Source: Pyronema omphalodes (lineage: Eukaryota; Ascomycota; Pezizomycetes; Pezizales; Pyronemataceae). From it: a stretch of 64,000 nt of DNA. A model generated the notes under the pieces. The model saw only the letters and a program-made list of their open reading frames with translations, did no database searches and was not told the DNA's origin. The position numbers and the translations under genes were made by a program. The stretch spans positions 310,001 to 374,000 of the forward strand of contig JAJJXM010000022.1 of the NCBI GenBank assembly GCA_024516155.1, read 5' to 3'. Shown one piece after another: positions 29,165-54,945 of this stretch (within the stretch, counting starts at the first letter, position 1; each line of letters begins with the position of its first letter).

Positions 29165-29320
29165 TCACGTGACTAGGGTTAGGGTTGCGCCCGCACGCAC
29201 ACAAACTAGGGTTAGGTTTGTGACCGTACGCGCACAGCTAGGGTTAGGGTTACGGACGCACGCGCACGATTAGGGTTACGGAAGCGCGCGCGTGACTACG
29301 CTTAGGGTTACGCTAGCGCG
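29165..29320 (+). repeat. Interstitial TTAGGG-like array in the G2 LTR
   Basis: Short blocks of (TTAGGG) alternate with CG-rich spacers of the type CGCACGCACAC. Blocks are at about 29178-29191, 29207-29216, 29239-29253, 29270-29278 and 29300-29308. The other family LTRs hold the same layout. Confidence 0.85.
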
Positions 29321-29532
29321 CACGCGAAGCACGCTACCGCGCACGCGAGTTACGCTATCGCGCACGCGAGATACGCTAACGAGCGCGCGACGAGGCTGTG
29401 CACGCAAACACGCTAATTTGGTACGAACGCGTTAGCGCGTCTAGAACGCGCAACCGCGACCGCGTTGTTTACTTAGTTATTTTTCGGGAAAATTCTGCAA
29501 GTAGTGGCTCGGCGTGTAAGGAGGAAAAATTG

Positions 29533-29540
29533 TATATAAG
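29533..29540 (+). promoter_or_regulatory. TATA box of the G2 LTR
   Basis: TATATAAG sits about 330 bp before the LTR end and downstream of the motif-rich region, a good candidate for the element promoter. Confidence 0.6.
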
Positions 29541-29863
29541 AGGATTGTTTCTTTGTTTGTTTATTTTGTTTTTCTTTTCTCCTTACACAGTTATTTGTTT
29601 ATTTACAAATTCAAATACTTTGTCGAAAATCTTTGTTTACGTCCTCGTTCTCGTCCCCGTCTTTGGATCTCTTTGTCCCTTGAAATCTTTGTTTATTTCC
29701 TTAACTTCTAAACACAGAAAGTCTTTAAGTTGATGCTAGACACAGCTTAAGAGTTTCTAACGTTGAAGTTATTATAAGGTTATATCCATTGAACTCAAGA
29801 GTGAATAATTGAGAAGAGCCCTCAGGTTCTCCGTCAGCTATCTCTCCCTTGTTCGCCGTTACA

Positions 29864-30106
29864 ACATAACTGTGTAATCAAGACCTGCCGGCTCTACCGT
29901 CAACTCTCGATTACAACAAGCTTTACATGCTTCACAACCTCTGGTTCTACGAATTCATCAATCTATTACCGATCTTCCGTTCCCTCGAAAACCCCGTCGT
30001 CCTTGACGAAATCGAAATTGCTCGACAACTCGGAAACGAATACGCAGCAACTCGAATTCAATACAACGACGAAACCAACATCTGGCACCTCCGTTAATCC
30101 CTCGAA
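29864..30106 (+). other. G2 leader between 5' LTR and gag
   Basis: Contains the primer-binding region directly after the LTR (ACATAACTGTGTAATCAAG), which I cannot match to a tRNA by eye. No ORF starts here before gag. Confidence 0.6.
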
Positions 30107-31225: not shown

Positions 31226-34200
31226 TCCATCAACAGCCTGTTGGCTCTGTTGTTGGACCAGCCCCTGCCTCGTCTTTCGTTTCATCTCAGGAAATCGTTT
31301 ATGTATCCGCTAGTTCTTTGTCAAGTAAACAAGAAAACGAATTGGATGGGAATCATTTGGTCGTGCCATGTACACTAACTGAACACAATACCAAGATCGA
31401 TACTCATGCTCTCGTAGACTGCGGGTGCACAGGAATTTCCTTCATGAACGAAGACTTCGCACGCCAACACAACTTCCCCCGTTATCAATTGAAAAACCCC
31501 AAAATGGTCGAAGTAATTGATGGACGACCTATTTCTTCAGGAGACATCACCGAATACGTTGAAGTCGAATGTACAATAGGAGACCATCATGAATTACTAA
31601 CTGCCTACGTTACTCGGCTTGGTCATTATCCCCTCGTTTTAGGAATCCCATGGCTTCGTAAACACGATGTTACAATAAACTTCGCCGATAACGATATCAA
31701 ATTCTCATCACCGAACTGCCTCCCCCACCGAACCACGTTAACACCCACCCCTGTTAAGGGTATTGCTCCGAAACAACAGAATAAGATCTGTGCCATTTCA
31801 GCTACGACGTTTCGACGCATTGTAAACAATGCCAACAACCGTTACGGAAAAGTCGAACAATTCTCCTTATCTTTGAATGAAATCACCACAGCTCTTCAAC
31901 CAGAGAAAGAGGAACCGGATCTTAAGACTATTGTACCACCCGAATATCACCAGTACTTGGGAATCTTCGAAAAGGTCAACGCCGACAAGTTACCGCCCCA
32001 TCGACCGTCGGATCACAAGATATCACTCGTCGATGGTTTTCAGCCTCCCTTCGGTCCTCTTTACTCCCTATCACGTCCAGAGTTGGAGGAATTGAAACGT
32101 TGGTTAGATGAGAACCTTACCAAAGGTTTCATCCGTGCTTCCTCGTCCCCAGCGGCCGCTCCCATTCTTTTCGTAAAGAAAGGCGATGGTTCATTACGTT
32201 TGGTGGTCGATTATCGTGGAATCAACGCCGGAACGATCAAGAATCGCTACCCTCTTCCCCTGATGCAGGATACCTTAATGAACCTTTCAAGAGCTAAGTG
32301 GTTCACTAAGCTCGACATTAGGGGGGCGTATAACTTAATACGTATGGCAAATGGGGAAGAATGGAAAACCGCTTTTCGTACCCGGTACGGATTATTCGAA
32401 TCATTGGTTATGCCTTTCGGACTTACCAATGCCCCTGCTACGTTTCAGAACTTCATTAACGACGTATTGGCACCCTACCTTGATCGATTCTGCACTGCCT
32501 ATTTGGATGACACCCTGATCTATTCGGATAATCTCGAAGAACATAAACAACATGTTAAATTGATTCTCGAAGCATTCGAAAAAGCAGGGTTACATCTCAA
32601 ACCAGAGAAATGCGAGTTCCACCAGAAGGAAGTAAAGTACTTAGGACTCATCATTAGTACAGAAGGTATAAAGATGGATCCTGAGAAGATTACTGCAGTT
32701 CGAGATTGGGAATCTCCCCGGAACCTCAAAGATGTTAGAGCGTTTTTGGGATTTGCAAACTTCTATCGACGTTTCGTTAAGAACTATTCAAAAATAGTCC
32801 AACCTCTTACGTTACTCACACGTAAAGGAGTTCCTTTCGTCTGGTCAGAATCCCAACAACAGGCCTTTGAGGAATTGAAATCAACATTTACATCCGCCCC
32901 CGTTTTGGCTCGTTTCGACCCAGACCGGGATGTTATTGTCGAAACCGATGCTTCTGATTATGTCTCCGCCGGAGTTCTTTCTCAATATGATGATGAAGCA
33001 ATCTTACATCCTATTGCTTACTTCTCAAAGAAACATTCCCCCGCTGAATGTAATTATGAGATATACGATAAAGAACTCATGGCTATCGTCCGGGCCTTCG
33101 AGGAATGGCGTCCCGAATTGCAATCTGTTATTAACCCCATCCGAGTACTGTCAGATCATAAGAATCTGGAATATTTCACTTCGACAAAGCTCTTGAACCG
33201 CCGTCAAGCCCGTTGGTCCCAGTTCTTGTCTCAGTTTAATTTTAAGATTGTTTACCGCCCCGGCACCGCAGGCGGTAAACCAGACGCACTGACTCGTCGA
33301 TCCGGAGATCTGCCTAAAGAGGGGGATGAACGCTCCCCAGAGAACCACACAACGATCATTAAGCCAGAGAATATCCTTCACGCTGCGGCTGTTACCCCCA
33401 GTAATCAACAAACAATAACGGATTCGCAACAAACCGTAATACCGGACCCACAACAAACAAACCCCACCTTATCCCAGCTCTTCACGGAAGCCTACGAGAA
33501 AGACCCATTCCCCATTAAGGTTATTGAAATGCTAAACAATAACACTCGTTATTGTAAAGACATTACATTAGCTGAATGTACGGTAAACAATAACCGTTTA
33601 CTCTACCGGGGATGTTTATGGGTCCCGAATTACGAACCCCTACGATTACACCTAATGCAACAACACCACGACTCTCCTACGGCTGGACACCCAGGTAGAT
33701 CTAAAACATTGAATACCTCTCAAGAACCTATACGTGGCCCCAGATGAGGACAGACGTGGAAAGATATATTCGAAATTGTCATACCTGCCAACGTTCGAAA
33801 CCTACCAGACATGCCCCGTTTGGTATCCTACGACCGCTACCTATTCCAGAAAGACCCTGGCAGGACATATCAATGGATTTCGTAACAGGATTACCATGGT
33901 CCAATAGGTGTGATGCAATTTGGGTAGTTGTGGACAGATTAACCAAAGAACGACATCTGATTGCCTGTCGAACAGACATCGACGCAAAGGAATTATCGTC
34001 TTTGTTTATTACCCACATCTTTCGAGTGCATGGACTCCCTCTTACCATTATCTCTGATCGAGGACCCCAATTCGCTGCTTTGTTTTGGAAGAATCTCTGT
34101 CGACGTTTGGGAATCGAGCCTCGATTATCTACAGCATTCCATCCCCAAACGGACGGTCAAACAGAACGAATGAACGCCATTATGGAACAATACCTCCGAG

Positions 34201-34940
34201 CCCACGTCAACTATCTTCAAGACGATTGGGCTGACTGGTTACCATTAGCAGAATTCGCTGCGAATAACCAAGCATCCGAGACAACGGGAACTTCCCCGTT
34301 CTTTGCTAATAAAGGATTCGACCCCCGTTGCCAATTCGATTTACTCCCAGCAGCTACGAACGATGTAAACGATCGACGGGCCCTCACAACTTCGAAAACC
34401 CTCGCCGAAATCCATAACCATTTACGAGCTGAAATCAACAGAGCTAATCTACGTTATCAAGAGAATGCCGATAAACATCGACTCCCGTCACCGAATTATC
34501 AGCCCGGAGATCTAGTATGGATGAATGCCCGTAATTGGAAAACCCGTCGACCCTCCCGGAAATTAGACAACAAACGTTACGGACCCCTCAAGATTATCGC
34601 CAAAGTATCCCCCTATGCCTATCGATTAGAACTACCTTCGACAATGAAATGTCACAACGTTCAACATGTTTCCTTATTGGAACCCGCTGCGAATGACCCC
34701 TACCCCGGTCAACAATCAGACCCACCACCCCCGGTGGAAATCGACGGTGAAGACGAATACTTCATCGAAGCTATCCTCGACTCCCGAATTCACCGGAAGA
34801 AACTTCAGTATATGGTTAAATGGGTTGGATACGATATGCCCGATTGGGAACCCGCCGAACTTCATTTCGACAGTAAAGCCGTTGACGACTTTCATAAAAA
34901 GTATCCCGATAAACCGGGACCCCTCCCCAACTTATCTTAG
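31084..34940 (+). pseudogene. G2 Pol, one frameshift in integrase
   Basis: The first frame (31084-33747) gives protease (HALVDCGCTGISF, with DCG instead of the usual DS/TG), then RT (LRLVVDYRGINAGTIKNRYP, SLVMPFGLTNAPATFQ, catalytic YLDD) and RNase H (VETDASDYVSAGVLSQ, SDHKNLEYF). It ends with the start of the integrase HHCC finger (HHDSPTAGHPGRSK). After a run of four A (33706-33709) the frame breaks. The shifted frame, open to 34940, continues EYLSRTYTWPQMRTDVERYI, CHTCQRSKP, the DDE region (MDFVTGLP, IISDRGPQF, AFHPQTDGQTERMN) and a chromodomain (YMVKWVGYDMPDWEPAELHF). One extra A would restore the frame. The G3 copy has the same break, so this element or its parent may need frameshifting here, or both are dead copies of one source. 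Confidence 0.88.
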
Positions 34941-34979
34941 AAGTTACTTCGCCGGAGCTCAGTCCAAGAAGGGGGATCC

Positions 34980-36119
34980 TGTCACGGCTCGAGAATTATT
35001 ACCTTCCCCCTCCTCGTCATTCATTCACCTATTATCATTCGCTTCATTATCCAGCACTCGTTTGTTTATTTATTTCTATTATCCTTCGGTCTTCGATCAT
35101 CACTCGTCACTCGCCTGGGTTAGGGTTGCGCTCAATTCCCAAATTGTCAAAAAGGTCACGTGACTTATCCCCAGGGTTAGGGGTCAGCTCGGATCCCTTT
35201 TCGGAAATTCCATACCTACGGTCTACCGATCATCTTATCCGATTAGATAAGATCGGTCACGTGTTCTAATCAATAGTAGATCAGTATGCACGCGCACTGG
35301 TCTACTAATGTGCGCACACGTGACTAGGGCTAGGGCACGATCATCTTATCGATAAGATAAGATCTAGTCATGTGACCTTATCAGTATTGCACCATCTTTC
35401 CAATCGCAGCTGATCTGGTTTCACGTGACTAGGGTTAGGGTTGCGCCCGCACGCACACAAACTAGGGTTAGGTTTGTGACCGTACGCGCACAGCTAGGGT
35501 TAGGGTTACGGACGCACGCGCACGATTAGGGTTACGGAAGCGCGCGCGTGACTACGCTTAGGGTTACGCTAGCGCGCACGCGAAGCACGCTACCGCGCAC
35601 GCGAGTTACGCTATCGCGCACGCGAGATACGCTAACGAGCGCGCGACGAGGCTGTGCACGCAAACACGCTAATTTGGTACGAACGCGTTAGCGCGTCTAG
35701 AACGCGCAACCGCGACCGCGTTGTTTACTTAGTTATTTTTCGGGAAAATTCTGCAAGTAGTGGCTCGGCGTGTAAGGAGGAAAAATTGTATATAAGAGGA
35801 TTGTTTCTTTGTTTGTTTATTTTGTTTTTCTTTTCTCCTTACACAGTTATTTGTTTATTTACAAATTCAAATACTTTGTCGAAAATCTTTGTTTACGTCC
35901 TCGTTCTCGTCCCCGTCTTTGGATCTCTTTGTCCCTTGAAATCTTTGTTTATTTCCTTAACTTCTAAACACAGAAAGTCTTTAAGTTGATGCTAGACACA
36001 GCTTAAGAGTTTCTAACGTTGAAGTTATTATAAGGTTATATCCATTGAACTCAAGAGTGAATAATTGAGAAGAGCCCTCAGGTTCTCCGTCAGCTATCTC
36101 TCCCTTGTTCGCCGTTACA
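34980..36119 (+). repeat. G2 3' LTR
   Basis: 1140 bp, apparently identical to 28724-29863. It is preceded by the polypurine tract AGAAGGGGGA (about 34967-34976). The frame from 34666 running into the LTR is an artefact. Confidence 0.93.
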
Positions 36120-36124
36120 GTTGG

Positions 36125-37140: not shown

Positions 37141-37385
37141 GGACTACTGGGAAAAACTACTCCCAATGGCGGAGTTTTGCTATAACAACACTCAATCCGA
37201 GACAACGAAGGTTACCCCCTTTTTCGCGAATTATGGGTATCATCCCCGGTTCGCACCCAGCCTGGGGAAAATAGAAGGAGGATTCCCGGAGGTGGCGGAA
37301 TACGTCTCAGCCCTCACCAACCTCCACCAGGAACTACAGGCAGAAATCGGATATGCACAGGCTGCCCAGGCAGAACAGGCAAATC
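37141..37385 (+). pseudogene. G6 integrase fragment, left part
   Basis: Encodes the C-terminal side of a Gypsy integrase core ([34 protein letters not shown]) up to EQAN, where G3 is inserted with TSD AAATC (37381-37385). The N-terminal boundary is a deletion junction with the G5 LTR. Confidence 0.88.
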
Positions 37386-38524
37386 TGTAACGGCGAACAA
37401 GGGAGAGATAGCTGACGGAGAACCTGAGGGCTCTTCTCAATTATTCACTCTTGAGTTCGATGGATATATCCTTATAATAACTTCAACGTTAGAAACTCTT
37501 AAGCTGTGTCTAGCATCAACTTAAAGACTTTCTGTGTTTAGAAGTTAAGGAAATAAACAAAGATTTCAAGGGACAAAGAGATCCAAAGACGGGGACGAGA
37601 ACGAGGACGTAAACAGAGATTTCGACAAAGTATTTGAATTTGTAAATAAACAAATAACTGTGTAAGGAGAAAAGAAAAACAAAATAAACAAACAAAGAAA
37701 CAATCCTCTTATATACAATTTTTCCTCCTTACACGCCGAGCCACTACTTGCAGAATTTTCCCGAAAAATAACTAAGTAAACAACGCGGTCGCGTTTGCGC
37801 GTTCTAGACGCGCTAACGCGTTCGTACCAAATTAGCGTGTTTGCGTGCACAGCCTCGTCGCGCGCTCGTTAGCGTATCTCGCGTGCGCGATAGCGTAACT
37901 CGCGTGCGCGGTAGCGTGCTTCGCGTGCGCGCTAGCGTAACCCTAAGCGTAGTCGCGCGCGCGCTTCCGTAACCCTAATCGTGCGCGTGCGTCCGTAACC
38001 CTAACCCTAGCTGTGCGCGTACGGTGACAAACCTAACCCTAGATTGTGTGCGTGCGGGTGCAACCCTAACCCTAGTCACGTGAAACCAGATCAGCTGCGA
38101 TTGGAAAGATGGTGCAATACTGATAAGGTCACATGACTAGATCTTATCTTATCGATAAGATGATCGTGCCCTAGCCCTAGTCACGTGTGCGCACATTAGT
38201 AGACCAGTGCGCGTGCATACTGATCTACTATTGATTAGAACACGTGACCGATCTTATCTAATCGGATAAGATGATCGGTAGACCGTAGGTATGGAATTTC
38301 CGAAAAGGGATCCGAGCTGACCCCTAACCCTGGGGGTAGGTCACGTGACCTTTTTGACAATTTGGGAATTGAGCGTAACCCTAACCCAGGCGAGTGACGA
38401 GTGATGATCGAAGACCGAAGGATAATAGAAATAAATAAACAAACGAGTGCTGGATAATGAAGCGAATGATAATAGGTGAATGAATAACGAGGAGGGGGAA
38501 GGTAATAATTCTCGAGCCGTGACA
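37386..38524 (-). repeat. G3 3' LTR
   Basis: Reads TGTAACGGCGAAC...CTCGAGCCGTGACA on the plus strand. It carries the GAACGCGCAA variant also present in G2, not the GAACCACAA variant of its own 5' LTR. Confidence 0.92.
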
Positions 38525-38563
38525 GGATCCCCCTTCTTGGACTGAGCTCCGGCGAAGTAACTT

Positions 38564-41500
38564 CTAAGATAAGTTGGGGAGGGGTCCCGGTTTATCGGGA
38601 TACTTTTTATGAAAGTCGTCAACGGCTTTACTGTCGGAATGGAGTTCGGCGGGTTCCCAATCGGGCATATCGTATCCAACCCATTTAACCATATACTGAA
38701 GTTTCTTCCGGTGAATTCGGGAGTCGAGGATAGCTTCGATGAAGTATTCGTCTTCACCGTCGATTTCCACCGGGGGTGGTGGGTCTGATTGTTGACCGGG
38801 GTAGGGGTCATTCGCAGCGGGTTCCAATAGGGAAACATGTTGAACGTTGTGACATTTCATTGTCGGGGGTAGTTCTAATCGATAGGCATAGGGGGATACT
38901 TTGGCGATAATCTTGAGGGGTCCGTAACGTTTGTTGTCCAATTTCCGGGAGGGTCGACGGGTTTTCCAATTACGGGCATTCATCCATACCAGATCTCCGG
39001 GCTGATAATTCGGTGACGGGAGTCGATGTTTATCGGCATTCTCTTGATATCGTAGATTAGCTCTATTGATTTCAGCTCGTAAATGGTTATGGATTTCGGC
39101 GAGGGTTTTCGAAGTTGTGAGGGCCCGTCGATCGTTTACATCGTTCGTAGCTGCTGGGAGTAAATCGAATTGGCAACGGGGGTCGAATCCTTTATTAGCA
39201 AAGAACGGGGAAGTTCCCGTTGTCTCGGATGCTTGGTTATTCGCAGCGAATTCTGCTAATGGTAACCAGTCAGCCCAATCGTCTTGAAGATAGTTGACGT
39301 GGGCTCGGACGTATTGTTCCATAATGGCGTTCATTCGTTCTGTTTGACCGTCCGTTTGGGGATGGAATGCTGTAGATAATCGAGGCTCGATTCCCAAACG
39401 TCGACAGAGATTCTTCCAAAACAAAGCAGCGAATTGGGGTCCTCGATCAGAGATAATGGTAAGAGGGAGTCCATGCACTCGAAAGATGTGGGTAATAAAC
39501 AAAGACGATAATTCCTTTGCGTCGATGTCTGTTCGACAGGCAATCAGATGTCGTTCTTTGGTTAATCTGTCCACAACTACCCAAATTGCATCACACCTAT
39601 TGGACCATGGTAATCCTGTTACGAAATCCATTGATATGTCCTGCCAGGGTCTTTCTGGAATAGGTAGCGGTCGTAGGATACCAAACGGGGCATGTCTGGT
39701 AGGTTTCGAACGTTGGCAGGTATGACAATTTCGAATATATCTTTCCACGTCTGTCCTCATCTGGGGCCACGTATAGGTTCTTGAGAGGTATTCAATGTTT
39801 TAGATCTACCTGGGTGTCCAGCCGTAGGAGAGTCGTGGTGTTGTTGCATTAGGTGTAATCGTAGGGGTTCGTAATTCGGGACCCATAAACATCCCCGGTA
39901 GAGTAAACGGTTATTGTTTACTGTACATTCAGCTAATGTAATGTCTTTACAATAACGAGTGTTATTGTTTAGCATTTCAATAACCTTAGTGGGGAATGGG
40001 TCTTTCTCGTAGGCTTCCGTGAAGAGCTGGGATAAGGTGGGGTTTGTTTGTTGTGGGTCCGGTATTACGGTTTGTTGCGAATTCGTTATTGTTTGTTGAT
40101 TACTGGGGGTAACAGCCGCAACGTGAAGGATATTCTCCGGCTTAATGATCGTTGTGTGGTTCTCTAGGGAGCGTTCATCCCCCTCTTTAGGCAGATCTCC
40201 GGATCGACGAGTCAGTGCGTCTGGTTTACCGCCTGCGGTACCGGGGCGGTAAACAATCTTAAAATTAAACTGAGACAAGAACTGGGACCAACGGGCTTGA
40301 CGGCGGTTCAAGAGCTTTGTCGAAGTGAAATATTCCAGATTCTTATGATCTGACAGTACTCGAATGGGGTTAATAACAGATTGCAATTCGGGACGCCATT
40401 CTTCGAAGGCCCGGACGATAGCCATGAGTTCTTTATCGTATATCTCATAATTACATTCGGCGGGGGAATGTTTCTTTGAGAAGTAAGCAATAGGATGTAA
40501 GATTCCTTCATCATCATATTGAGAAAGAACTCCGGCGGAGACATAATCAGAAGCATCGGTTTCGACAATAACATCCCGGTCTGGGTCGAAACGAGCCAAA
40601 ACGGGGGCGGATGTAAATGTTGATTTCAATTCCTCAAAGGCCTGTTGTTGGGATTCCGACCAGACGAAAGGAACTCCTTTACGTGTGAGTAACGTGAGAG
40701 GTTGGACTATTTTTGAATAGTTCTTAACGAAACGTCGATAGAAGTTTGCAAATCCCAAAAACGCTCTAACATCTTTGAGGTTCCGGGGAGATTCCCAATC
40801 TCGAACTGCAGTAATCTTTTCAGGGTCCATCTTTATACCTTCTGTACTAATGATGAGTCCTAAGTATTTTACTTCCTTCTGGTGGAACTCGCATTTCTCT
40901 GGTTTGAGATGTAACCCTGCTTTTTCGAATGCTTCGTGAATCAATTTAACATGTTGTTTATGTTCTTCGAGATTATCCGAATAGATCAGGGTGTCATCCA
41001 AATAGGCAGTACAGAATCGATCAAGGTAAGGTGCCAATACGTCGTTAATGAAGTTCTGAAACGTAGCAGGGGCATTGGTAAGTCCGAAGGGCATAACCAA
41101 TGATTCGAATAATCCGTACCGGGTACGAAAAGCGGTTTTCCATTCTTCCCCATTTGCCATACGTATTAAGTTATACGCCCCCCTAATGTCGAGCTTAGTG
41201 AACCACTTAGCTCTTGAAAGGTTCATTAAGGTATCCTGCATCAGGGGAAGAGGGTAGCGATTCTTGATCGTTCCGGCGTTGATTCCACGATAATCGACCA
41301 CCAAACGTAATGAACCATCGCCTTTCTTTACGAAAAGAATGGGAGCGGCCGCTGGGGACGAGGAGGCACGGATGAAACCTTTGGTGAGGTTCTCATCTAA
41401 CCATCGTTTCAATTCCTCCAACTCTGGACGTGATAGGGAGTAAAGAGGACCGAAGGGAGGCTGAAAACCATCGACAAGTGATATCTTGTGATCCGACGGT

Positions 41501-42420
41501 CGATGGGGCGGTAACTTATCGGCGTTGACTTTTTCGAAGATTCCCAAGTACTGGTGATATTCGGGTGGTACAATAGTCTTAAGATCCGGTTCCTCTTTCT
41601 CTGGTTGAAGAGCTGTGGTGATTTCATTCAAAGATAAGGAGAATTGTTCGACTTTTCCGTAACGGTTGTTGGCATTGTTTACAATTCGTCGAAACGTCGT
41701 AGCTGAAATGGCACAGATCTTATTCTGTTGTTTCGGAGCAATACCCTTAACAGGGGTGGGTGTTAACGTGGTTCGGTGGGGGAGGCAGTTCGGTGATGAG
41801 AATTTGATATCGTTATCGGCGAAGTTTATTGTAACATCGTGTTTACGAAGCCATGGGATTCCTAAAACGAGGGGATAATGACCAAGCCGAGTAACGTAGG
41901 CAGTTAGTAATTCATGATGGTCTCCTATTGTACATTCGACTTCAACGTATTCGGTGATGTCTCCTGATGAAATAGGTCGTCCATCAATTACTTCGACCAT
42001 TTTGGGGTTTTTCAATTGATAACGGGGGAAGTTGTGTTGGCGTGCAAAGTCTTCGTTCATGAAGGAGATTCCTGTGCATCCGCAGTCTACGAGAGCATGA
42101 GTATCGATCTTGGTATTGTGTTCAGTTAGTGTACATGGCACGACCAAATGATTCCCATCCAATTCGTTTTCTTGTTTACTTGACAAAGAACTAGCGGATA
42201 CATAAACGATTTCCTGAGATGAAACGAAAGACGAGGCAGGGGCTGGTCCAACAACAGAGCCAACAGGCTGTTGATGGACTACTCTTTTCCCTGGTCGACG
42301 TCGGGGTTTGTTGGGATATCCAAAACCTCGGCGGCGGCTAGGCGAATCTTGCGGGAGTTGTTTGCTGCCAACGTAGAACATTTGTTCTTGAAGTGATCGG
42401 CTGATCCACAATAAAGGCAA
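38564..42420 (-). pseudogene. G3 Pol, same integrase frameshift as G2
   Basis: Frames 42420-39757 and 39760-38564 correspond to the two G2 Pol segments. Protease (DCGCTG), RT with YLDD, RNase H, integrase DDE and chromodomain are all present. The break falls at the identical position (SK then TLNTSQEPIRGPR in the unshifted frame). Differences from G2 are scattered single residues, for example LIHEAFEKAG versus LILEAFEKAG. No excess of stop codons from repeat-induced point mutation is seen. Confidence 0.88.
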
Positions 42421-43397
42421 AGTCCCTTAGCCATTCGTTCATCACGACGGCGTTGGTTCTGAGCCTTTTGGGAAGCTGATAGGTCCATGGGGGCCGATCC
42501 GTAATTACCACCATTGGTATTCGTTGGGTGGGACGCCGGGCGAGACGGCGTGGAGCTGGAACGACTGGGGACCGAAGGAACGTGCCGCTTTGTGGTGTTT
42601 GAATGAGCTCGAATCCTATAATCTAGCTTCATACAAAGATCCACAAATTTGGTGAAGTTCTGAGGTTCTTCGGCTTGGTAAACAAGACTGGTCTGAAGGT
42701 CTCGAGAGAGTCCACGCTTCAGAGCAGCCTTCTTTGCGTTTTCGTCGTAGTTCAAGATAGCCATTAATCGTTGGAATTCTGCGTAGTATTGGCTAAACTC
42801 ACGGTTGCCCTGTTGAAGTTTATCCAATTCCGCAGATGCAGTACCAACTTGATCAGGATCTCCGAAGGCAGCTTCCAGAATTGTAATGAGAGCCTCAACG
42901 TCCTTAAGCTTAATCTTATCTGTAAGGACGTAGGGTTGAATTTGATTCTGAGCGTTGCCTTTGAGATATCCATAAGTATAACGTAGCTTATGTTGATCAT
43001 CGGTAAAACGGGAGGAGTCTCCGGCGAGCTTGGATCTGACCTTCGAGATGAAGTTCAAGAGTTCCTTGCGTTCACCAGAGAACTCAGGTGGGTGAGGTAA
43101 TTCGATGGGACGGGTATTCGGAAGGGGACCGTTCTTCGTAAGGGCTTGTAGGAGTCGAACGGAGGCGTTGGCGCTTTCGAGATCCCTTTCCAAATCGGTA
43201 ATTCGTTGAGCGTAGAGGGAGTTGTCCTTTCGAGCTTCTGTGAGTTCAGCTCGGAGGTCGTCCCTAAGTTGACAGTCTCGTTCGTATTCTTTTACGGCGT
43301 TACGGACCAATTTGATCTTCGTAGGGTCCTGTTCGACCTCCAACCTTTCGGCTTCGTTGAGGTACAGGGCCACGACGACCTTGTTGTTTTGGTCCAT
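42279..43397 (-). CDS. G3 Gag, 372 aa
   Basis: Open throughout and nearly identical to G2 Gag. It has the same core and zinc knuckle, here CLYCGSADHFKNKC, with the other differences in the Ser/Pro linker (HVPSVPS, TNTNGGNYG). It overlaps Pol in the -1 frame by 142 nt. Confidence 0.92.
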   Translation of the reverse strand: MDQNNKVVVALYLNEAERLEVEQDPTKIKLVRNAVKEYERDCQLRDDLRAELTEARKDNSLYAQRITDLERDLESANASVRLLQALTKNGPLPNTRPIELPHPPEFSGERKELLNFISKVRSKLAGDSSRFTDDQHKLRYTYGYLKGNAQNQIQPYVLTDKIKLKDVEALITILEAAFGDPDQVGTASAELDKLQQGNREFSQYYAEFQRLMAILNYDENAKKAALKRGLSRDLQTSLVYQAEEPQNFTKFVDLCMKLDYRIRAHSNTTKRHVPSVPSRSSSTPSRPASHPTNTNGGNYGSAPMDLSASQKAQNQRRRDERMAKGLCLYCGSADHFKNKCSTLAANNSRKIRLAAAEVLDIPTNPDVDQGKE

Positions 43398-43640
43398 TTC
43401 GAGGGATTAACGGAGGTGCCAGATGTTGGTTTCGTCGTTATATTGAATTCGAGTTGCTGCGTATTCGTTTCCGAGTTGTCGAGCAATTTCGATTTCGTCA
43501 AGGACGACGGGGTTTTCGAGGGAACGGAAGATCGGTAATAGATTGATGAATTCGTAGAACCAGAGGTTGTGAAGCATGTAAAGCTTGTTGTAATCGAGAG
43601 TTGACGGTAGAGCCGGGAGGTCTTGATTACACAGTTATGT
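43398..43640 (-). other. G3 leader between 5' LTR and gag
   Basis: Counterpart of 29864-30106 in G2, on the minus strand. No ORF is supported; the plus-strand frame at 43206-43538 is a shadow. Confidence 0.6.
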
Positions 43641-44779
43641 TGTAACGGCGAACAAGGGAGAGATAGCTGACGGAGAACCTGAGGGCTCTTCTCAATTATT
43701 CACTCTTGAGTTCAGTGAATATATCCTTATAATAACTTCAACGTTAGAAACTCTTAAGCTGTGTCGAGCATCAACTTAAAGACTTTCTGTGTTTAGAAGT
43801 TTAAGGAAATAAACAAAAATATCAAGGGACAAAGAGATCCAAAGACGGGAACGAGGACGAGGACGTAAACAAAGATTTCGACAAAGTATTTGAATTTGTA
43901 AATAAACAAATAACTGTGTAAGGAGAAAAGAAAAACAAAATAAACAAACAAAGAAACAATCCTCTTATATACAATTTTTCCTCCTTACACGCCGAGCCAC
44001 TACTTGCAGAATTTTCCCGAAAAATAACTAAGTAAACAACGCGGTCGCGGTTGTGGTTCTAGACGCGCTAACGCGTTCGTACCAAATTAGCGTGTTTGCG
44101 TGCACAGCCTCGTCGCGCGCTCGTTAGCGTATCTCGCGTGCGCGATAGCGTAACTCGCGTGCGCGGCAGCGTGCTTCGCGTGCGCGCTAGCGTAACCCTA
44201 AGCGTAGTCGCGCGCGCGCTTCCGTAACCCTAATCGTGCGCGTGCGTCCGTAACCCTAACCCTAGCTGTGCGCGTACGGTCACAAACCTAACCCTAGTTT
44301 GTGTGCGTGCGGGTGCAACCCTAACCCTAGTCACGTGAAACCAGATCAGCTGCGATTGGAAAGATGGTGCAATACTGATAAGGTCACATGACTAGATCTT
44401 ATCTTATCGATAAGATGATCGTGCCCTAGCCCTAGTCACGTGTGCGCACATTAGTAGACCAGTGCGCGTGCATACTGATCTACTATTGATTAGAACACGT
44501 GACCGATCTTATCTAATCGGATAAGATGATCGGTAGACCGTAGGTATGGAATTTCCGAAAAGGGATCCGAGCTGACCCCTAACCCTGGGGGTAAGTCACG
44601 TGACCTTTTTGACAATTTGGGAATTGAGCGTAACCCTAACCCAGGCGAGTGACGAGTGATGATCGAAGACCAAAGGATAATAGAAATAAATAAACAAACG
44701 AGTGCTGGATAATGAAGCGAATGATAATAGGTGAATGAATGAAGAGGAGGGGGAAGGTAATAATTCTCGAGCCGTGACA
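43641..44779 (-). repeat. G3 5' LTR
   Basis: On the minus strand it carries the same TTAGGG blocks, GATA palindromes, CACGTG boxes and TATATAAG box as the G2 LTR. At the CG-rich site near 44050 it reads GAACCACAACCGCG like G5, unlike its own 3' LTR. Confidence 0.92.
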
Positions 44780-45257: not shown

Positions 45258-45782
45258 GAACCATGGCCAGCCCCATAAACCCCGAGAACGACCAACACTC
45301 CGGCGGCTGGTACCGCCAGGACGCCCCACCACCGACAACCACGTATCCCCCACACGATGCCCAACACTGGACCTTTTGTTACGACGACTACTGCGCCACA
45401 CATCGACAATCGAAAGAAAACCACAATTATTTTCCAACCGCTGGACGGGAAGGAACCAACGAATGTAACTGCGGACGAACGCACGATCCCGAGTTAGAGG
45501 CTGTGATCCGGAGGAAACATCTGCACGTTCGGAAGGCCTGTCGGGCCTGGCAGCGAGGAAAGAGGGTCTGCTACGACTGTGGGTTTCTGGTTAACATGGA
45601 CGGCCATGAAGCCAGATGCGGCGCCACGGGGCCTACCCGCTCCTCGACAACTCCCGCTCCGACACCGGATGAACCAACTCCCGTTCCGGAGAAGGACCAA
45701 CAACACCCCAACGGGGAACGGCCACCAACAGCACCCGAGCTGGCCTCGGAAACCTCGAGCGAGACTTTGATGGAGAAGAGGT

Positions 45783-45795
45783 CCCTGTGGTACAT
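45783..45795 (+). repeat. Left 13-bp terminal inverted repeat
   Basis: CCCTGTGGTACAT. Similarity beyond 13 bp is weak, with only a short GCATAA...ATTCC/AATCC echo inside both ends. Confidence 0.8.
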
Positions 45796-46480
45796 CAGAT
45801 CGTTATAAAGATATGCCATCAGTGCATAACTTTATTCCACGATGAGAATAAAATGTCCTCCTGCTATGCCTGACCTATCCTTCGACTACCCCCTACCTAA
45901 CCTCGTGCTAACCTCGTGCTATCCTCTGCTTAAAGCCTTAAGCTCTATCCCCCGTTTATTTCGCCCCCCCCCCACTTTATTTATGTTTTATTTCATCCCC
46001 CGACTTATTCTTAATTTATTTCACCCCCCGAGTTATTCACTATTTCCTTCACCCCCGAGTTATTCACTATTTATTTTATGACTTGTTTTATTCACTATTT
46101 ATGTTTTATCACCCGTTTATTTTCTACTCATTTTGTTGTTTTTGTGTTGCATTTTAAGCTTTCTCTCAGCGTTTAGACAACGCCAAACAAAAGGTTTATT
46201 CAACGGCATTTTTTCTAGATTTGTATGTTACAGGAAAAGAGGTACATTCAATGCATGTAATTTAATGTAGAAAAAAGAAAAAAAAATACAAACAAAAAAA
46301 AAACACAGGCAAAACAAACAACGACACTGTCGGTACATCAGCTTTTGATAAAAACAGCGGGATAAGACATACCCATGCTGGATCATTAGGTCCTGATTTC
46401 GAATAGTTTGTGGTCAGCATCACGCTGAAATTTCAATTTCTTTTTGGCCTTTTGCAGGTAGATTGTTCATTAGTACTTTT
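45796..46480. other. Non-coding left part of the inverted-repeat element
   Basis: C- and T-rich simple sequence (repeated TTCACCCCC/GAGTTATTCAC and TTTATT units, about 45950-46130), then A-rich DNA with interrupted A runs (46264-46306). No gene. Confidence 0.6.
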
Positions 46481-46735
46481 TGTGCTGAGGGATTGAAGGG
46501 GTTGATTTATTGGGGATTCGAGGGGTTGGTCAATAAATGGTGTGCTGAGGGATTGTGGTAGTTGATTCATTGGGGGATTCGAGGGGTTGGTCGAGGAATG
46601 GTGTTCTGAGGGATTGCGGTGGTTGATTTACTGAGGGATTCGAGGGGTTGATCGCAGCGGAGAAATGGTGTGCTGAGGGATTGAAGGGGTTGATCGAGAA
46701 ATGTTGTGGTGGGGGATGGTGGTGGTTGATTTATT
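46481..46735 (+). repeat. Four-unit minisatellite, about 60-bp period
   Basis: Units start at about 46481, 46541, 46602 and 46669 with TGTGCTGAGGGATTG (or TGTTCTGAGGGATTG) and share GGGGATTCGAGGGGTTGGTC. Subterminal arrays like this are common in non-autonomous DNA transposons, where transposase may bind. Confidence 0.85.
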
Positions 46736-47349
46736 ACTGTTGATGGAGGTTACAACGGAAAAATGCTGTGGCGCGGGTGGTGACAGAAATCAGGTTTCGA
46801 TGGAACTTTAGACGTGCAAAATCTTTCCCTTCCGGCTTCCAGATGTGATGTCATGTGAAAAAGCCCCCATCCATCAAGATTCAGCCCTGCAAGGGGCGCT
46901 ATCTTCCCCCCCGCTGCTACCTACCACTAGCTCCCGTTGCATCAGCTCTTCGTCTCGCTTCCCCCCACCTCGCTTCTCCACCAGCTACTACGAACTCCAC
47001 TACAAACTCGAGTTCTCAAGCTTCCCTACATTATCACGGAGATCTCGACAAATTTCACCACCTGCTCTGTCCCCCGATTTGCAGCACTCCGACCTGCAGC
47101 AATACCCAATTTCCTCAGTGTGTTCCAATCCTGTGCACCTCCCACCCCTCCCCCAATACAAGCTTCTCCCACCACGAGCAGTCCGGGAGATTCCCCGAAA
47201 CCACATCAAGAATTCACGAGTCCCTCTCCGCTAATTCCGCCTCCCTCTGCCACCATCCAAGCCGTCTGAAAGAACTCCGCCATTTTCTACTCCCCCCATT
47301 CCGCCTTCTCTCTACATTTTCTCTTTACCGGTTTCATTAAGTCCAGCCC
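46736..47349. other. C-rich stretch before the Dicer fragment
   Basis: Frames here are open on the plus strand because the DNA is rich in C and poor in G (46845-47340), giving Ser/Pro/His-rich peptides with no domain. I cannot tell whether this is decayed gene sequence or filler. Confidence 0.45.
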
Positions 47350-49320
47350 AGGATGGGGTTAGTATCAAAGTCGAGGCGCTCATAGACATTCTTCTTACTG
47401 AACATGAGAATGAGATGGATAAGGATAATATAGCGGCGTTTTCTGGATTGGTGTTTGTACAACAAACAGCTGGTACCTTGGTTTTGACGGAGATTCTCAA
47501 GCACCACCCACGCACAAAACGGATATTTAAGCCTGGTGCGATGACGGGTTCTAGTGGCTTCGACAAATTGCTCAACTTCTTAGATAAGAGTAGAAACAAG
47601 CGTCAACAATCAACTCTCCAGGATTTCCGAACGGGAAAAAAGAATCTTATTTTATTATCTCATCTTCAGTTATCGAGGAGGGACTAGATATCCAGAACTG
47701 CCACTTGGTTGTTTGCTTTGAACCACCAACGAACTTGAAGAGCTTCGTTCAACGACGTGGAAGGGCGTGGAGAAAGGAGATTTCTTATATCATCATGTAC
47801 CCTCGTGGTACCACACAAACGAAATCTAGTGACTTTGAAATCTTGGAAGAACAGATGGAAGAACTCTACAGAGATCAGTCGAGACAAGTGGACTTAGATA
47901 CTGAATGGGAGTACGATGATAAAGATCGTGAGGAGGGACATGACAAGGTTTACCGGATTGAAAACACCGGGTATGTGACTGCCTATTTCCATAATTCATG
48001 TAATTTTGCTACCGTTTTAATATCAGGGCTGTCCTCACAATGGAAAGTTTTATTCCTCATCTTTACCATTTTTGTGCATGCCTTCCACCTCAGGAGTTCG
48101 TGGATTTACGACCTCAGTTCCAGACAACGAAGTCTGTAGGCATCGATGCTAGAGTATCATGGGAGGCAGAAGTCGTCTGGCCAAACTCCATCCATCCCGA
48201 TATTCGGTGCTTTAATACAACTGAAGCCTGGCACACCGAAAAATGGGCAAAGCGTGACGTTGCCTTCGCTGCATGTATGAAGCTTCATCAGCTCGGCAAT
48301 TGGACGATAACCTGATGGATCTTGGAAAAGGAGACCGTGTACCTATGCAAGAAGCTCAAAAGAGAGCCCCTAGAGCGACTGTAGATGGTCGGGATGACAT
48401 CTGGCAATCGGTTAATAAATACTGGAGCAGTACAACCGTTGCTATGCTAACAAAATTGAAATGACGTTCTCATCAGGACAAGTTTCCACACTCGATATTC
48501 TACTACCCATCAAGCTTCCTAAAATTCCTGAGCTGAAGCTTTTTTGGTCAACGGCGGAGACTGTTCAGACTAGAATTAGCCAACATGCAAAGAGTGTTGA
48601 GAATACTCCAGAGCTCATCAAGAGAGCTAGAAATGCAACCTTCCGTCTCATTAAAAACCATCATTACAGGGCCTCGGCGGATAAATTAGACTACACCTAT
48701 CTCTTCCTCCCTGGTGAAGGGTCCGGCGAAACATGGGACCAGTTTACAAACGAATCAATTCCAGCACTCGAAGCCTATAAAAGTGGCATTGAAATGGGGA
48801 TTATCAGAGAACACGACGATATTGGAGATAGCTTAGGAGCCTTATATATTTTTGAAAGATGGCGACATGATTTGAATCCTCTTGATTTTTCGAGCAAACT
48901 CGAAGGTGAACTTCTAAAGCAACCTATTATGGAGGTTACAAAACTTACTTGACGCCGGGATTTCTTGCATGAGTCCGCTGGTCTCGGCAGAAAGGTTGAC
49001 AAAGTGTGCCACATCTTACCAAGTCATCATCGTGTCGACACTCTTCCTTGGAAATATGCTCGTCTTGGGTTACTCTTACCATTCATTGTTGACAGAGTTG
49101 AAAAGACGCTTCTTGCAGCTAGCCTTAGAAGTTACATAAAATTGGACTGGCTACCAATTGAATCGTTGCTGTGTGCAATCACCGCCTCATCTGCGCAAGA
49201 TCCAACTGACTACCAGCGCCTTGAATTCCTTGGCGACTCTGTTTTGAAAATGCTCCTAAAGATTATATTCATGGCGTGGGAAGAACTGCGAGATGTGCAA
49301 ATGGAAAAGGTCGCTCGTTG
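47350..49320 (+). pseudogene. Dicer-like (DCL-2-type) gene fragment
   Basis: A broken fragment of an RNAi Dicer. In order: helicase C domain (KVEALIDILL, SGLVFVQQTAGTLVLTEIL, TLQDFRTGKKNLI; then in another frame VIEEGLDIQNCHLVVCFEPP and FVQRRGRAW, the motif V/VI region). A dimerisation-domain-like stretch follows (SFIPHLYHFCACLPPQEFVD), then a spacer (DKLDYTYLFLPGEGSG) and an RNase IIIa start with the catalytic box [16 protein letters not shown]. The N-terminal DExD ATPase half, RNase IIIb and dsRBD are missing. The reading frame is broken by at least three stops or shifts (near 47650, 48315/48464, 48952), some of which might be introns. It lies wholly inside the inverted-repeat element. It cannot make a working Dicer. 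Confidence 0.85.
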
Positions 49321-49972
49321 ATATCTTTGTTGCCGAATGAAGTTGGCTTTTTGAAGACTTTGAAGGAGGCTAAGGTTCCGGTTGTTGAGTTTGAGTTCCC
49401 GGCAATTTTTTCGCCGGCCGCGGGGTTGTAGTTGGGGATAAATGCTGATTTATAAACAACAGGGCATATCTTCACGCATACGGTGACATCTGCAATGTTG
49501 CAGACATTGCGGAATCGATTGTCAGCGGAAATCGGAAATTATTGCATCATATGCCGGATACCTCATGAAAGAGGATAAACGAAAATTTTATCAAGGAAGT
49601 TGTGAACTATTGATTTGGGGTGGGCGAAAATATCTGTTAAGATATTCGGGTGCGCTCTGGTAATGGGGACGAAATGGTTTTTTTTTTTTACATAATTTGT
49701 GATAGTAATTCTGTTTTTGTCAATTTTTCGCTTGTGAATTCAGGGTGGTTGTTGCTTGATCTTTGAATAATTTCCGGAAGATGTTTGCAACGGCCATTGT
49801 TCAGTGAGATTACTTAAGATCGAAACTTTAATTGTGACAATGTTGCATATTTTATTCAAAGGGATAGATCGGGCAACTTTATCACCGTGATGGCATAAAC
49901 CAGGGATAGCCCTCCCGTTGCATAGAATTTTTGGTGGGGGAGGATTATATTTATGCAATTTGTATGGGCAGA
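49321..49972. other. Right part of the inverted-repeat element
   Basis: Possible further decayed Dicer sequence (NVADIAESIV near 49490, ASYAGYLMKEDKRKF near 49545, in different frames), then AT-rich DNA with a T run at 49678-49690. Too degraded to assign firmly. Confidence 0.4.
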
Positions 49973-49985
49973 ATGTACCACAGGG
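49973..49985 (-). repeat. Right 13-bp terminal inverted repeat
   Basis: ATGTACCACAGGG, the exact reverse complement of the left end, followed by the GGT duplication. Confidence 0.8.
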
Positions 49986-50074
49986 GGTACGTCCCCGTCT
50001 ACCTCATGTCCCCAAACAGGGACCCCGAACGACTCGCGATAAACCTCTCTTTTTACGGACCACCCACTGGATAG

Positions 50075-51039: not shown

Positions 51040-54000
51040 TTAGGTAATACTGCAGATATTATACTAATTCAAGAAGCCAATATTACAAACAAAAAATACA
51101 CAGTAAGCCACCCCGATTTTACTCTACTGCACCCGAGCAAAGGCAGCCGCCATTCAATCAGAACAGCAGCATACATCACACGAAATAATCCACACCTACA
51201 TGTTACCCCGAGGCTAGACATCTGTGAGGATTCAGATCTCCAAATTCTAGAAGTCAGCACGCCACTTATCCCTACCTTTCACTTAATCAATATGTATAAT
51301 GAAAAAGAACCCTCAACACGCCTGTACACTATTCCCCGCTGCTTCCCTAACTTGAACTTCCCCCACAGATGTGTGATAACTGGTGATTTCGATGCACACC
51401 ATGCGCTCTGGAACACCCAGACTACTAACCCAGTACGATCAACTGAGATAATCCAACTCCTGGAAGAAGAGGGATGGCAATTAATCAACACCCCAGACGT
51501 TCCTACTTATCAGTACAAAAATGGGCAGGGATCCTCGGTGCTGGATCTGACAATAGCAACACCTGGAATGACAAGAGAAGTAACTAATTGGGCAGTTGAC
51601 GATGACAATGCCACTGGGTCAGACCATGAGGTCATTGGTTTCGAAATAAATTCCCTACACCCCGATGTGGAATACAGAGCGCCATCTCCCCGGCTCAACT
51701 GGAAAAAGACCAACTGGGAAAACGTTTCCTCAATCCTACAAAAGCTTTCACAGTCATGCCGAAGAGCATGGGATACAGACAGGGAAATGCCAGAGGATCA
51801 TGTATTGGATGCCCAAGCGGAGCAGCTAAGGGACATAATCCTAGAGGCAGCAACTGCTTCTACCCCACTGGTGAAGCCATTACCAAGATTGAAGCGATGG
51901 TGGACAGATGAAATTAAGGAAAGCAGAAAAACAATGAACGTAGCCAGGAAACGATGGCAAGGTACACGAACACAGGAATACCATGAGGAGTTCAAAAGAT
52001 TGCGGAACCTACATTTCCGAAAGATTCGCCATGCCAAAGACTCCCTCTGGAAGGAATACCTGGCCCACGCAGAAGGGGCTGATATATGGGCGGCTTTTCG
52101 ATATACCAATCCCAGACAACCAAAGATTATCCCTACATTAAATCTCTTGAGCGCAGGAACAATACAAAAGTGCACAGACTTCAAGTCAAAAGCTCGGGCA
52201 TTTAAATCCCTATTCCCTACACCTCCATCGGCAACCCCAACGCAAGAATCACAAGGAAAGCCTCCACTCCCATGGAAGACATTCTTGAAAGAGGAAATCC
52301 AGATGGCTATCTTTGCACCATCACCCAACAAAGCACCAGGGCCCGACAAAATCACATTTGCCTGCTTACATCAAGCGTACCTGGCGATTCCAGAACATTT
52401 TCACACGCTCTATGCAACATTGGGGAGGGTGGGATATCAACCCCGAAGCTGGAGACAGGCCACAACAATAATTACAGCAAAGCCAAACAAAGCTGATTAT
52501 AGCAACCCAAAATCATATCGGCCAATTGCATTACTGAATTGCCTTGGAAAGGTCCTTGAGAAACTGATGGCAACTAGGCTCAGCCAGATGGCGGAAGTGT
52601 ATGGATTGCTGCATCAGGACCAGATCGGGGGAAGACCATTCAGGTCCGCTGTTGATGCAGCGATGGCTCTAACACATGAGGTGGAAACTGCAGAGAAGAA
52701 AAAATTAATCACCACAGCACTTTTCCTAGATGTGCGAGGAGCCTTTGATAATGTATCATCACCTCGACTTATCAACACCATGAGACATCTAGGATGCCCG
52801 GAGCCAGTTGTAAAATGGGCAACCTCCTTCCTCAGCCACAGAACCATGGCTCTCTCATTCGATGGACAAACAGAAACAGAAAACCCAATCAGTACTGGAA
52901 TACCTCAAGGGTCACCGGCCTCTCCAATGTTATTCCTATTATACCTGCGCCCACTTTTCGACAGACTCAGCCTACGTCATCCTGAGGTATGGACACCAAG
53001 TTTCATTGACGATGTGGGCCTGGTAGTTCATGGTCCAACCAGAGAAGGAAATTCAAGAAAACTGGAGGCAGTTGCAAAAACCGCATTTCAATGGGCAGAA
53101 AGAAACGCAGTAGCTTTTGATGATGACAAGTCAGAAATGTTGCATTTCTATGGAGCCAAGAAGGATGAAGACAGAGAAGAAGAGAAGATTACTTTACCAA
53201 ATGGTACAGTGGTGTCACCGGGGACTCGAGGAGGAAAAAGGGATGTTGTCAGGTGGATAGGAATTTATTTTGATAGAAAGCTGACATTTAAACACCATGT
53301 GCATGTAAAGCTGACTGCCGCCTCCAGATCCTTCAGTGCCCTATGTAGCCTCGTCCGCTTCCAAACAGGTTTGTCCCCAGCAGCTGCACGCTTACTTTAC
53401 TGTGCCTGTGTCCAATCTAGGTCCGATTTTGGAGTAGAGATCTGGTGGAAAGGACAGAAAGTCCTGGCCGAAAAAATGCAGCTTCAACAAAATCAAGCCT
53501 TGAGGAGGATCCTAAATGCGTTCCAATCGACACCTATAATGGCCCTACACAACGAATGTGCAATACCACCGGTGACGGTCAGACTCAATGGAAAACAAAG
53601 GAACTATGCCCTAAGACTTCTTACACTCCCACCAAGACATCCTGTGGCTTCCAGGTGTCCATCCTCCTTCCCAATCCCAAATCACTTCAGAAATTCACTA
53701 CAATCTAACCGGGAATATGACTGTCAATGGCAAAGTGGACTTGGAGCACCCTCGCGGCTGTCTGGCTTACTCCAATACCTGGGAGCATGGCTATCTCCCA
53801 CAGACACAGTGGAGGACACAGCTCAACCAACCATGACACCTTGGGACAAGAACGGCATCCATACCGAAATCGAAGAAAGCCCGAAAGAAGACGCCGCCAG
53901 AATTCACCTAAATAGACTGCAAGAACTACAAGGGGAAGACAATAATATCATCATATACACAGACGGCTCATCGAAGGAAGATCAAACAGGGGCTGGAGTC

Positions 54001-54945
54001 TACATTCCTCATGGACTCCCGCAAATAATCAAACCCACAATACCGATGGGAGAAACAAGTGAGGTCTATGATGCAGAACTTCGAGCGATACTTGAAGGCC
54101 TCAAGAAGGCTGCATCATTTATCAAGCGACACAAGGCATCCAATCGACATATCTACATCTTTAGTGACAACCAGTCAGCGATCCGTAGGATAAGACACCT
54201 CCAAAGGGGACCCGGCCAAGATATTGCCCGAAACATCCATGAAATTACGAAAACCCTGATGAAATTCAACACTGAAATAACAATCTCATGGGTACCGGGA
54301 CACACACAAATCCAAGGAAATGAGATAGCAGATGACCTCGCCAAAGCTGCAACCTCTCAGAAACCGGACCGCACACCTGTGGTATCCATCTCCTGGCTGA
54401 AAAGACAAACCCGAGGCCAGAAACTGAAGGAGTGGAAGGAATGGTACGAACAACAAAAACAGCCAAAAACATACAAATCACCTCATTCAAGACAGCTAGA
54501 CATTGCATACACAAATACCACCCGCAAAATCTCATCAGCCATCCTAGGCCTGAGAACCGGTCATGGATATTTTCTGGATTACCTATCAAAGACGAACTCC
54601 GAAAAATATCCTTCACCCAGATGCACCTGTCCAATGCAACCCCCACAAACACCCAAACACCTCATCCTAGGCTGCCCAAAATACCAAGTACAGAGGAATA
54701 AACTCCGCCGCGAACTGAAACTTCACAGGAACCACCCTGCACCACTCCAAGTGATACTCCACTCTCCCGATGGAACCAAGGCCCTTACCACTATGATCTC
54801 TACTACCAAGATTGCCACCGCAGAGTGGATACAGGCACAGGTAAGTAATGCTCCCGCTCTGGAAGATGACCCGGAAGGAAGGAGAACAGGCTGGGGAACA
54901 CTGATCGAATCTGAGAACGAGCACGAAGCGGTTCGGAGCGAATAA
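51040..54945 (+). pseudogene. LINE ORF2, main part: EN, RT, RNase H
   Basis: It resumes LINE ORF2 directly after the G6 TSD. Joined with 18502-18594 it makes 1332 aa with no internal stop. Endonuclease signatures are ADIILIQEANI, CVITGDFDAHHALWN, SVLDLTIATPGM and ATGSDHEVIGFEI. RT has SYRPIALLNCLGKVLEKLMA, DQIGGRPFRSAVDA, LFLDVRGAFDNV, GIPQGSPASPMLFLLYL and catalytic FIDDVGLVV near residue 686. RNase H has IIIYTDGSSKEDQTGAGVYI, AELRAILEGL, FSDNQSAIRRI and SWVPGHTQIQGNEIADDLAK. The end carries a Cys/His motif (CTCPMQPPQTPKHLILGC). The ATG at 51292 is not the real start; codons from 51040 (LGNTADIILI) belong to the endonuclease. Broken only by the insertion. Confidence 0.92.

Follow-up and report, generated by a model that had tools for sequence, protein, structure and literature searches.

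A Dicer Gene Fragment as Cargo of a Probably Non-Autonomous CACTA-Like DNA Transposon Family in Pyronema omphalodes

Introduction

The mobile element reported here lies in a 64,000-nucleotide stretch of the Pyronema omphalodes genome (contig JAJJXM010000022.1, positions 310,001 to 374,000; termed the window), and among the described systems closest to it are the Pack-CACTA and Pack-TYPE elements of plants, alongside which Catoni et al. 2019 is reportedly named. All published systems are described here as they appear in the available parts of the cited papers. Pack-CACTA and Pack-TYPE elements are non-autonomous, include CACTA types and hold pieces of host genes (PMC8903248); the available main text of that paper contains no word starting with "fung". 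In fungi, hAT elements captured histone H3 (PMC3538342, PMC6710886). In Zymoseptoria tritici a DNA methyltransferase gene was amplified, and all of its copies including the original were inactivated by repeat-induced point mutation (RIP) (PMC6710886). Rice CACTA elements carry miR820, which targets OsDRM2 (PMC3459959), and fungal transposons, EnSpm and Plavaka among them, carry TET/JBP enzymes (PMC12730594).

The element in the window occupies positions 45783-49985 (4,203 bp). Its 13-bp inverted ends are perfect, and it contains pieces of two host genes, Dicer and HAS1. It is very probably a DNA transposon of the cut-and-paste type that is non-autonomous and belongs to the CACTA/EnSpm (CMC) group, with the Dicer piece as a neutral passenger. 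It is regarded as CACTA-like because its ends recur almost unchanged in a larger relative whose transposase is of the CACTA/EnSpm type. The initial annotation, made from the letters of the window, had proposed a gene-capturing non-autonomous DNA element, and the multiple copies of the element and the location of the donor genes elsewhere in the genome now support this proposal.

Results and Discussion

Copies of the Element and Its Insertion Site

The analysis covered a 60.8-Mb assembly of 232 contigs, in which the window lies on contig C135. All copy counts of the element are lower bounds. The window copy is delimited by the following features.

45263..50074, + strand: extra open reading frame (ORF) of a Ty3 retrotransposon, 606 nt, split by the element into 45263-45782 plus 49989-50074
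45780..45782, no strand: left target-site duplication GGT
45783..45795, + strand: left terminal inverted repeat CCCTGTGGTACAT
49973..49985, - strand: right terminal inverted repeat, reverse complement of CCCTGTGGTACAT
49986..49988, no strand: right target-site duplication GGT

Both the perfect 13-bp terminal repeats and the 3-bp GGT duplication described in the initial annotation were located at these positions. Its further statement that removal of the element exactly restores the extra ORF was reproduced by script: the flanks joined in silico with a single GGT read from 45263 as 201 open codons followed by TAG, 606 nt in total. An empty site was found in 11 of 11 related Ty3 loci examined, which were taken from at least 39 other matches. 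These paralogues run through the site without an insertion.

An inverted pair of 13 bp within 7 kb does not by itself exceed chance, and the same 7-kb scan listed another perfect inverted pair of 14 bp (I9) elsewhere. The element is considered real because its ends recur across the genome and not because of the inverted pair itself. The end 13-mer occurred 34 times in the genome, compared with 0 occurrences of a reversed control. Copies with both ends were found at at least 11 places, located on contigs C135, C197, C29, C200 (three), C150, C68, C178, C188 and C35. The copies on C188 and C35 were 100% identical over 11,501 bp with their flanks included, and therefore at least ten independent insertions were counted. 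A 3-bp flank duplication was present at 11 of 11 places and thus at all ten independent insertions (GGT, ATA, GTT, ACC, CCG, TTT, AAG, AAT, AAG and TTT). The 13-bp ends were perfect in eight of the ten insertions, while C200c and C68 had one change in the left end. Each of the ten contained the Dicer piece, whole or in part, and large internal deletions were observed in the copies C68, C178 and C200a. The left end was also common to two further places without a Dicer match, at 91% and 93% identity (the C150 relative discussed below and C153); at C153 no right end was seen within the fetched stretch.

The initial annotation had held that the absence of any other copy would reduce the element to a one-off rearrangement, and had called for a search for further copies with the same termini and 3-bp duplications; the at least ten independent insertions answer both points. 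It is hardly conceivable that a single rearrangement or segmental duplication carried the Dicer piece into a Ty3 copy, with ends that are inverted by chance. Such an event would agree with the chance level of the inverted pair and with the duplicated stretch shared by C188 and C35, but it is refuted by the ten different flanks in which copies stand, all of them showing a duplication of 3 bp, as well as by the empty sites in 11 of 11 loci examined.

The identical 11.5-kb stretch itself (C188:317000-328500 and C35:82600-94400) represents either a recent duplication or an assembly duplicate. Its element copy contains a nested insertion of approximately 5.6 kb within the Dicer piece. This insertion (L020/L021, C35) is flanked by an apparent 5-bp TAGAT duplication, and we take its ORFs to resemble a Ty1/Copia retrotransposon.

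The Captured Dicer and HAS1 Pieces

The two captured gene pieces lie between the element ends in one and the same orientation.

47320..49255, + strand: captured Dicer fragment, 96.4% identical to C24:110137-112069
approximately 47448-47773, + strand: Helicase_C domain, position carried over from the donor
47971..48026, + strand: retained Dicer-gene intron, GT..AG
approximately 48049-48329, + strand: Dicer dimerisation domain, position carried over from the donor
approximately 49214-49255, + strand: start of RNase IIIa, position carried over from the donor
49250..49482, + strand: captured fragment of HAS1, a DEAD-box helicase gene, in two blocks

The Dicer-like segment from helicase C to RNase IIIa that had been recognised from the sequence is real, as judged by its match to a donor gene on C24 (96.4% identity over 1,938 columns). 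In a Pfam search of the captured pieces, Helicase_C and Dicer_dimer exceeded the curated cut-offs. For the first RNase III domain, the start scored only below its cut-off, and this part of the earlier description stands on the donor match. The Dicer part ends at 49255, approximately 14 residues into RNase IIIa, and at its junction with HAS1 only a few bases are alike.

The donor Dicer gene, whose comparison had been suggested, was found on C24. Its two long exons join over a GT..AG intron to 2,023 codons whose reading frame meets a stop at its end only; over this tested part the gene is open. Domain matches of the gene comprise DEAD (in an open stretch upstream), Helicase_C, the Dicer dimerisation domain and two RNase III stretches, and a match to a dsRNA-binding domain remained below its cut-off. 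Ahead of helicase C the gene has a long open stretch of several hundred residues (L023, approximately 2710-5200) in which acidic motifs recur and Pfam gave no match.

The donor intron is present in the element. Consequently, capture occurred at the DNA level, and capture of a cDNA was rejected. Compared with the donor, the reading frame of the captured piece is broken by one 5-bp insertion and two 1-bp deletions. Wherever a copy holds the respective site, the indel is present (8 of 8, 8 of 8 and 9 of 9 copies); therefore, the frame was broken before the element spread. In addition, one to three stops per copy were found in the Dicer piece.

The description of the element interior in the initial annotation was incomplete, since it had overlooked HAS1 as well as what is probably the remnant of a transposase. 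The two HAS1 blocks showed 92.9% and 92.2% identity to a donor on C222, and 107 bp of the donor are missing between them. The C222 gene encodes a DEAD-box helicase, identified as HAS1 through solved HAS1 chains; its best matches among solved structures were, at E = 3e-228, a chain labelled "RNA helicase" and, at E = 7e-222, HAS1.

The Transposase-Coding Relative and the Assignment of the Element

The remaining parts of the element were compared with the genome and with a larger element on C150.

45783..46486, + strand: left end; 91% identity with the corresponding end of C150:482726-491541, the relative that codes for a transposase
46450..46760, + strand: tandem repeats of approximately 61 bp (repeat families D2 and D3)
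46776..47008, + strand: stretch 78.5% identical to the region separating the two divergent ORFs of the relative
47009..47319, + strand: stretch found in element copies (genome search)
49535..49660, + strand: probable remnant of a transposase C-terminus, same ..SGA-W-stop ending
49808..49985, + strand: right end; 90% identity with the corresponding end of the C150 relative

The genome search with 47009-47319 matched only element copies and, apart from these, stretches of 32-41 bp. From its position in the relative we infer that 46776-47008 is the promoter or leader of a transposase gene.

The relative (8.8 kb) has the same right end as the element and one change in the left end; identity between the two amounts to 91% in the leftmost 704 bp and to 90% in the rightmost 178 bp. 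It encodes an uninterrupted protein of 1,173 amino acids at C150:483155-486670, which matched Transposase_21 with E = 8e-14 and Plavaka with E = 0.03, the latter below the cut-off. A second ORF of 476 amino acids lies on the opposite strand and gave an AT-hook match below the cut-off. According to the available part of PMC12730594, the transposases of EnSpm and its allies are of the DDE type, and between the second D and the E they contain the motifs C(2)C and H(3-4)H. The 1,173-residue protein contains D480, D576, C595xxC598, H897xxxH901 and E921 in this order, and thus the relative has the DDE, C(2)C and H(3-4)H arrangement of CACTA/EnSpm elements (CMC, CMCT). The roles of these residues in the transposase would be those assigned from the motif order in the same paper. 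The 3-bp target duplication of CACTA/EnSpm elements was found at 10 of 10 independent insertions.

The element also has the properties of a Pack-type element. Pieces of host genes lie between its termini, with Dicer on C24 and HAS1 on C222 as donors; no transposase ORF was found within the window copy; and the whole was multiplied as a unit, with at least ten independent insertions. Other groups of gene-capturing elements were considered. Pack-MULEs generate target duplications of 8-11 bp, mostly 9 bp, and an assignment to Pack-MULEs or MULEs was rejected because the target duplications are 3 bp. Helitrons have no inverted ends, cause no target duplication and insert into AT; they were rejected on the basis of the 13-bp inverted ends and the 3-bp duplications. 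The earlier remark that the termini fit neither group is thus correct, and the transposase of the relative together with the 3-bp duplications points to CACTA/EnSpm (CMC).

Several observations weigh against this assignment or against the link to the relative. CACTA/EnSpm termini begin with CACTA, or are CA..TG in most members. The termini of the element, CCCTGTGGTACAT, begin with neither CACTA nor CA, and the element is therefore filed as CACTA-like and not as canonical CACTA. The flank duplication of the relative is 5 bp and not 3 bp; for the wider CMC group, target duplications of 2-5 bp are given in the available part of PMC12730594. On C98, an element whose ends are similar is flanked by TTTA at either side and has no clean 3 bp. 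The relative and the element match only in their ends, in a single stretch of the middle and over 35 bp of HAS1. The genome contains further transposase relatives (44 rows), so that the true mobiliser may be a different transposase or one that was lost. Finally, the remnant at 49535-49660 is weak: its E values were 0.004-0.055 in 10 of 11 element places, it was not matched at E ≤ 1 in C200b, and the control of the remnant search gave one chance match at E ≤ 0.01 in 20 shuffles. In direct comparison with the transposase C-terminus it showed 38% identity over 50 columns (pairwise E = 3e-7). It agrees with a C-terminus in place, orientation and stop and is probably a transposase remnant.

BLAST comparisons covered the elements with similar ends (L026-L030, L043-L045), and two of these were also surveyed for ORFs. 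One on C101, with 3.7 kb between the similar ends, has an ACA duplication. With up to one mismatch, the end 13-mer gave 248 genome matches, compared with 41 for the reversed control. These 248 matches indicate a large group of related elements; many among the matches listed end with ..ACAA and not with ..ACAT.

Order of Events

The divergence from the donor amounts to approximately 7% for HAS1 and 3.0-3.6% for Dicer, and the copies and their majority sequence differ by approximately 0.7% over the Dicer part. Since the HAS1 piece is more diverged from its donor, the divergence suggests that HAS1 was captured first. The likely sequence would thus be capture of HAS1, later capture of Dicer and then a burst of copies. 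The C150 relative holds three HAS1 pieces of 126, 82 and 122 bp with 93-97% identity, two of them directly upstream of the transposase ORF and in the same orientation; the HAS1 sequence that overlaps between relative and element is only 35 bp. This would be in line with one old HAS1 capture that was trimmed differently in the two lineages, and separate captures in relative and element are conceivable as an alternative.

The following course of events is proposed. The element would descend from a transposase-coding element that lost nearly the whole transposase gene. Host genes would have been captured as templates during break repair, HAS1 before Dicer as judged by divergence. Mobilisation would occur in trans by a transposase such as that encoded at C150:483155-486670, and the Dicer piece would be a non-coding neutral passenger.

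Variation among the Copies

Substitutions were scored against the majority sequence of the copies, and a difference found in two copies counts twice. In the Dicer piece 87 nonsynonymous and 22 synonymous changes were observed, which does not deviate from neutrality by simple site counting (p = 0.73). Variation was similar in the Dicer part (0.0068), the middle (0.0078), the HAS1 part (0.0075) and the right end (0.0072); it was higher in the left end (0.0165) and slightly lower in the tandem part (0.0058). The Dicer piece has drifted neutrally after the spread, and a sign of constraint is absent. Singletons made up 188 of the 245 variable columns, a star-like pattern, and this excess reflects a burst-like spread.

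The comparison of the donor with the majority sequence runs counter to a wholly neutral passenger. It gave 30 nonsynonymous and 19 synonymous changes, which is not neutral (p = 0.009). Therefore, part of the divergence arose under coding constraint. Most simply, this constrained divergence would have arisen in the donor gene after the capture, or the piece may derive from another source allele.

It is very improbable that the piece is kept as a protein, i.e., as a truncated Dicer or a Dicer-HAS1 fusion that interferes with the host Dicer. The helicase C and dimerisation domains do lie in the orientation inferred for the transposase gene. A coding Dicer fragment was nevertheless rejected on account of the three frame-breaking indels in every copy holding the respective sites, the stops in each copy and the neutral substitutions. 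Since the site-holding copies share the frameshifts, the piece can at most act as RNA.

Two further processes were considered for the differences among the copies. A RIP signature was not found in the ten copy rows compared with the majority (104 C>T/G>A, 87 T>C/A>G and 144 transversions), and decay by RIP was rejected for lack of a C-to-T/G-to-A excess. Of 114 variants among the copies, 8 were donor-like, and four of these eight occurred in the copy on C150, which the tree placed adjacent to the donor with a support of 0.82. Gene conversion with the donor was not adopted for these variants, since retained ancestral states explain them equally well.

Host RNA Interference Genes and a Possible Effect on Silencing

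The genome contains genes for RNA interference (RNAi). Paired RNase III domains were found at two loci (C24 and C112) and Piwi domains at three (C172, C223 and C205; the stretch of C205 that was read contains two stops). RdRP was found at four loci: C146 is open, and C35, C175 and C222, with introns disregarded in the reading, are in pieces, some with stops. Each element copy shares 393-1,032 perfect 21-mers with the Dicer gene. These 21-mers and the RNAi genes would provide an opportunity only for Dicer-directed small RNAs, which are possible.

The piece could act against silencing if transcripts of it started in sense at the transposase leader, or in antisense at neighbours, and RNAi converted them into small RNAs that match the Dicer gene, lower Dicer and thereby favour the spread of the element. 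We consider this unlikely. The shared 21-mers and the RNAi genes would allow it, the spread of the element postdates the capture of Dicer, and the CACTA-borne miR820 directed against OsDRM2 in rice is a precedent (PMC3459959). On the other hand, there is no sign of selection, as the piece varies like most parts of the element and its changes are neutral. The copies C178 and C200a are without much of the Dicer piece, although these losses may postdate insertion, and a second Dicer locus exists. In this unlikely reading the element would act as a self-made brake on RNAi, through a negative feedback on Dicer that relaxes silencing and allowed it to spread; it would be an equivalent of miR820 derived from a long gene piece. 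A passenger role is preferred because of the lack of constraint on the piece and the second Dicer locus.

Neighbourhood in the Window

The element lies among other repeats. At 28724-36120 and 37385-44779 there are two Ty3 copies in opposite orientation with 98.7% identity. The 1,140-bp long terminal repeats (LTRs) of the first are 100% identical, and those of the second approximately 98%. A further Ty3 copy (20091-28724) has 1,075-bp LTRs (20091-21165 and 27650-28724) with 100% identity, and its gag and pol ORFs are open. The adjoining sequence matches other LTRs, and this copy may sit inside an older LTR. On the other side, 51292-54945 contains a LINE-type ORF of 1,217 amino acids with endonuclease, reverse transcriptase and RNase H domains.

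Comparison with Known Systems

No transposon-captured Dicer piece was found in the titles and abstract openings of the literature consulted, a search that left most subscription papers uncovered and does not prove absence. As far as the literature searched shows, a Dicer piece as cargo of a fungal CACTA-like element is new. Gene capture by CACTA elements is already known in plants from the papers cited above; here it extends to a fungus, together with a likely order of events. The family is a natural case in which a transposon holds about ten recent copies of sequence from a silencing-machinery gene while the original and the RNAi genes are still present. It makes testable whether elements can turn RNA defence against itself. 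Weakening of defence by an element-borne sequence was, in the available parts of the literature surveyed, shown only for rice CACTA elements.

The following comparisons refer, as before, to the available parts of the cited papers. Like plant Pack-CACTA elements (PMC8903248), the element is non-autonomous and holds pieces of host genes. Unlike these, it resides in a fungal genome, has the ends CCCTGTGG and not CACTA, and carries an RNAi gene as cargo. With the transduplication of H3 by hAT elements it shares that a fungal DNA transposon captures and multiplies a host gene. In Pseudocercospora fijiensis, however, the copies and not the original are inactivated by RIP, whereas no RIP signature was found here. 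As in the methyltransferase case of Z. tritici, a genome-defence gene was multiplied in a fungus, but the original Dicer is open where tested. In the miR820 system, too, an element of the CACTA group carries sequence that matches a silencing gene of the host; in rice both the microRNA and its effect were demonstrated, whereas the 1.9-kb gene piece is known from sequence alone. Finally, the transposons with TET/JBP enzymes are likewise fungal CMC-group elements with silencing-related cargo. There the cargo is an enzyme gene, and here it is a broken gene piece.

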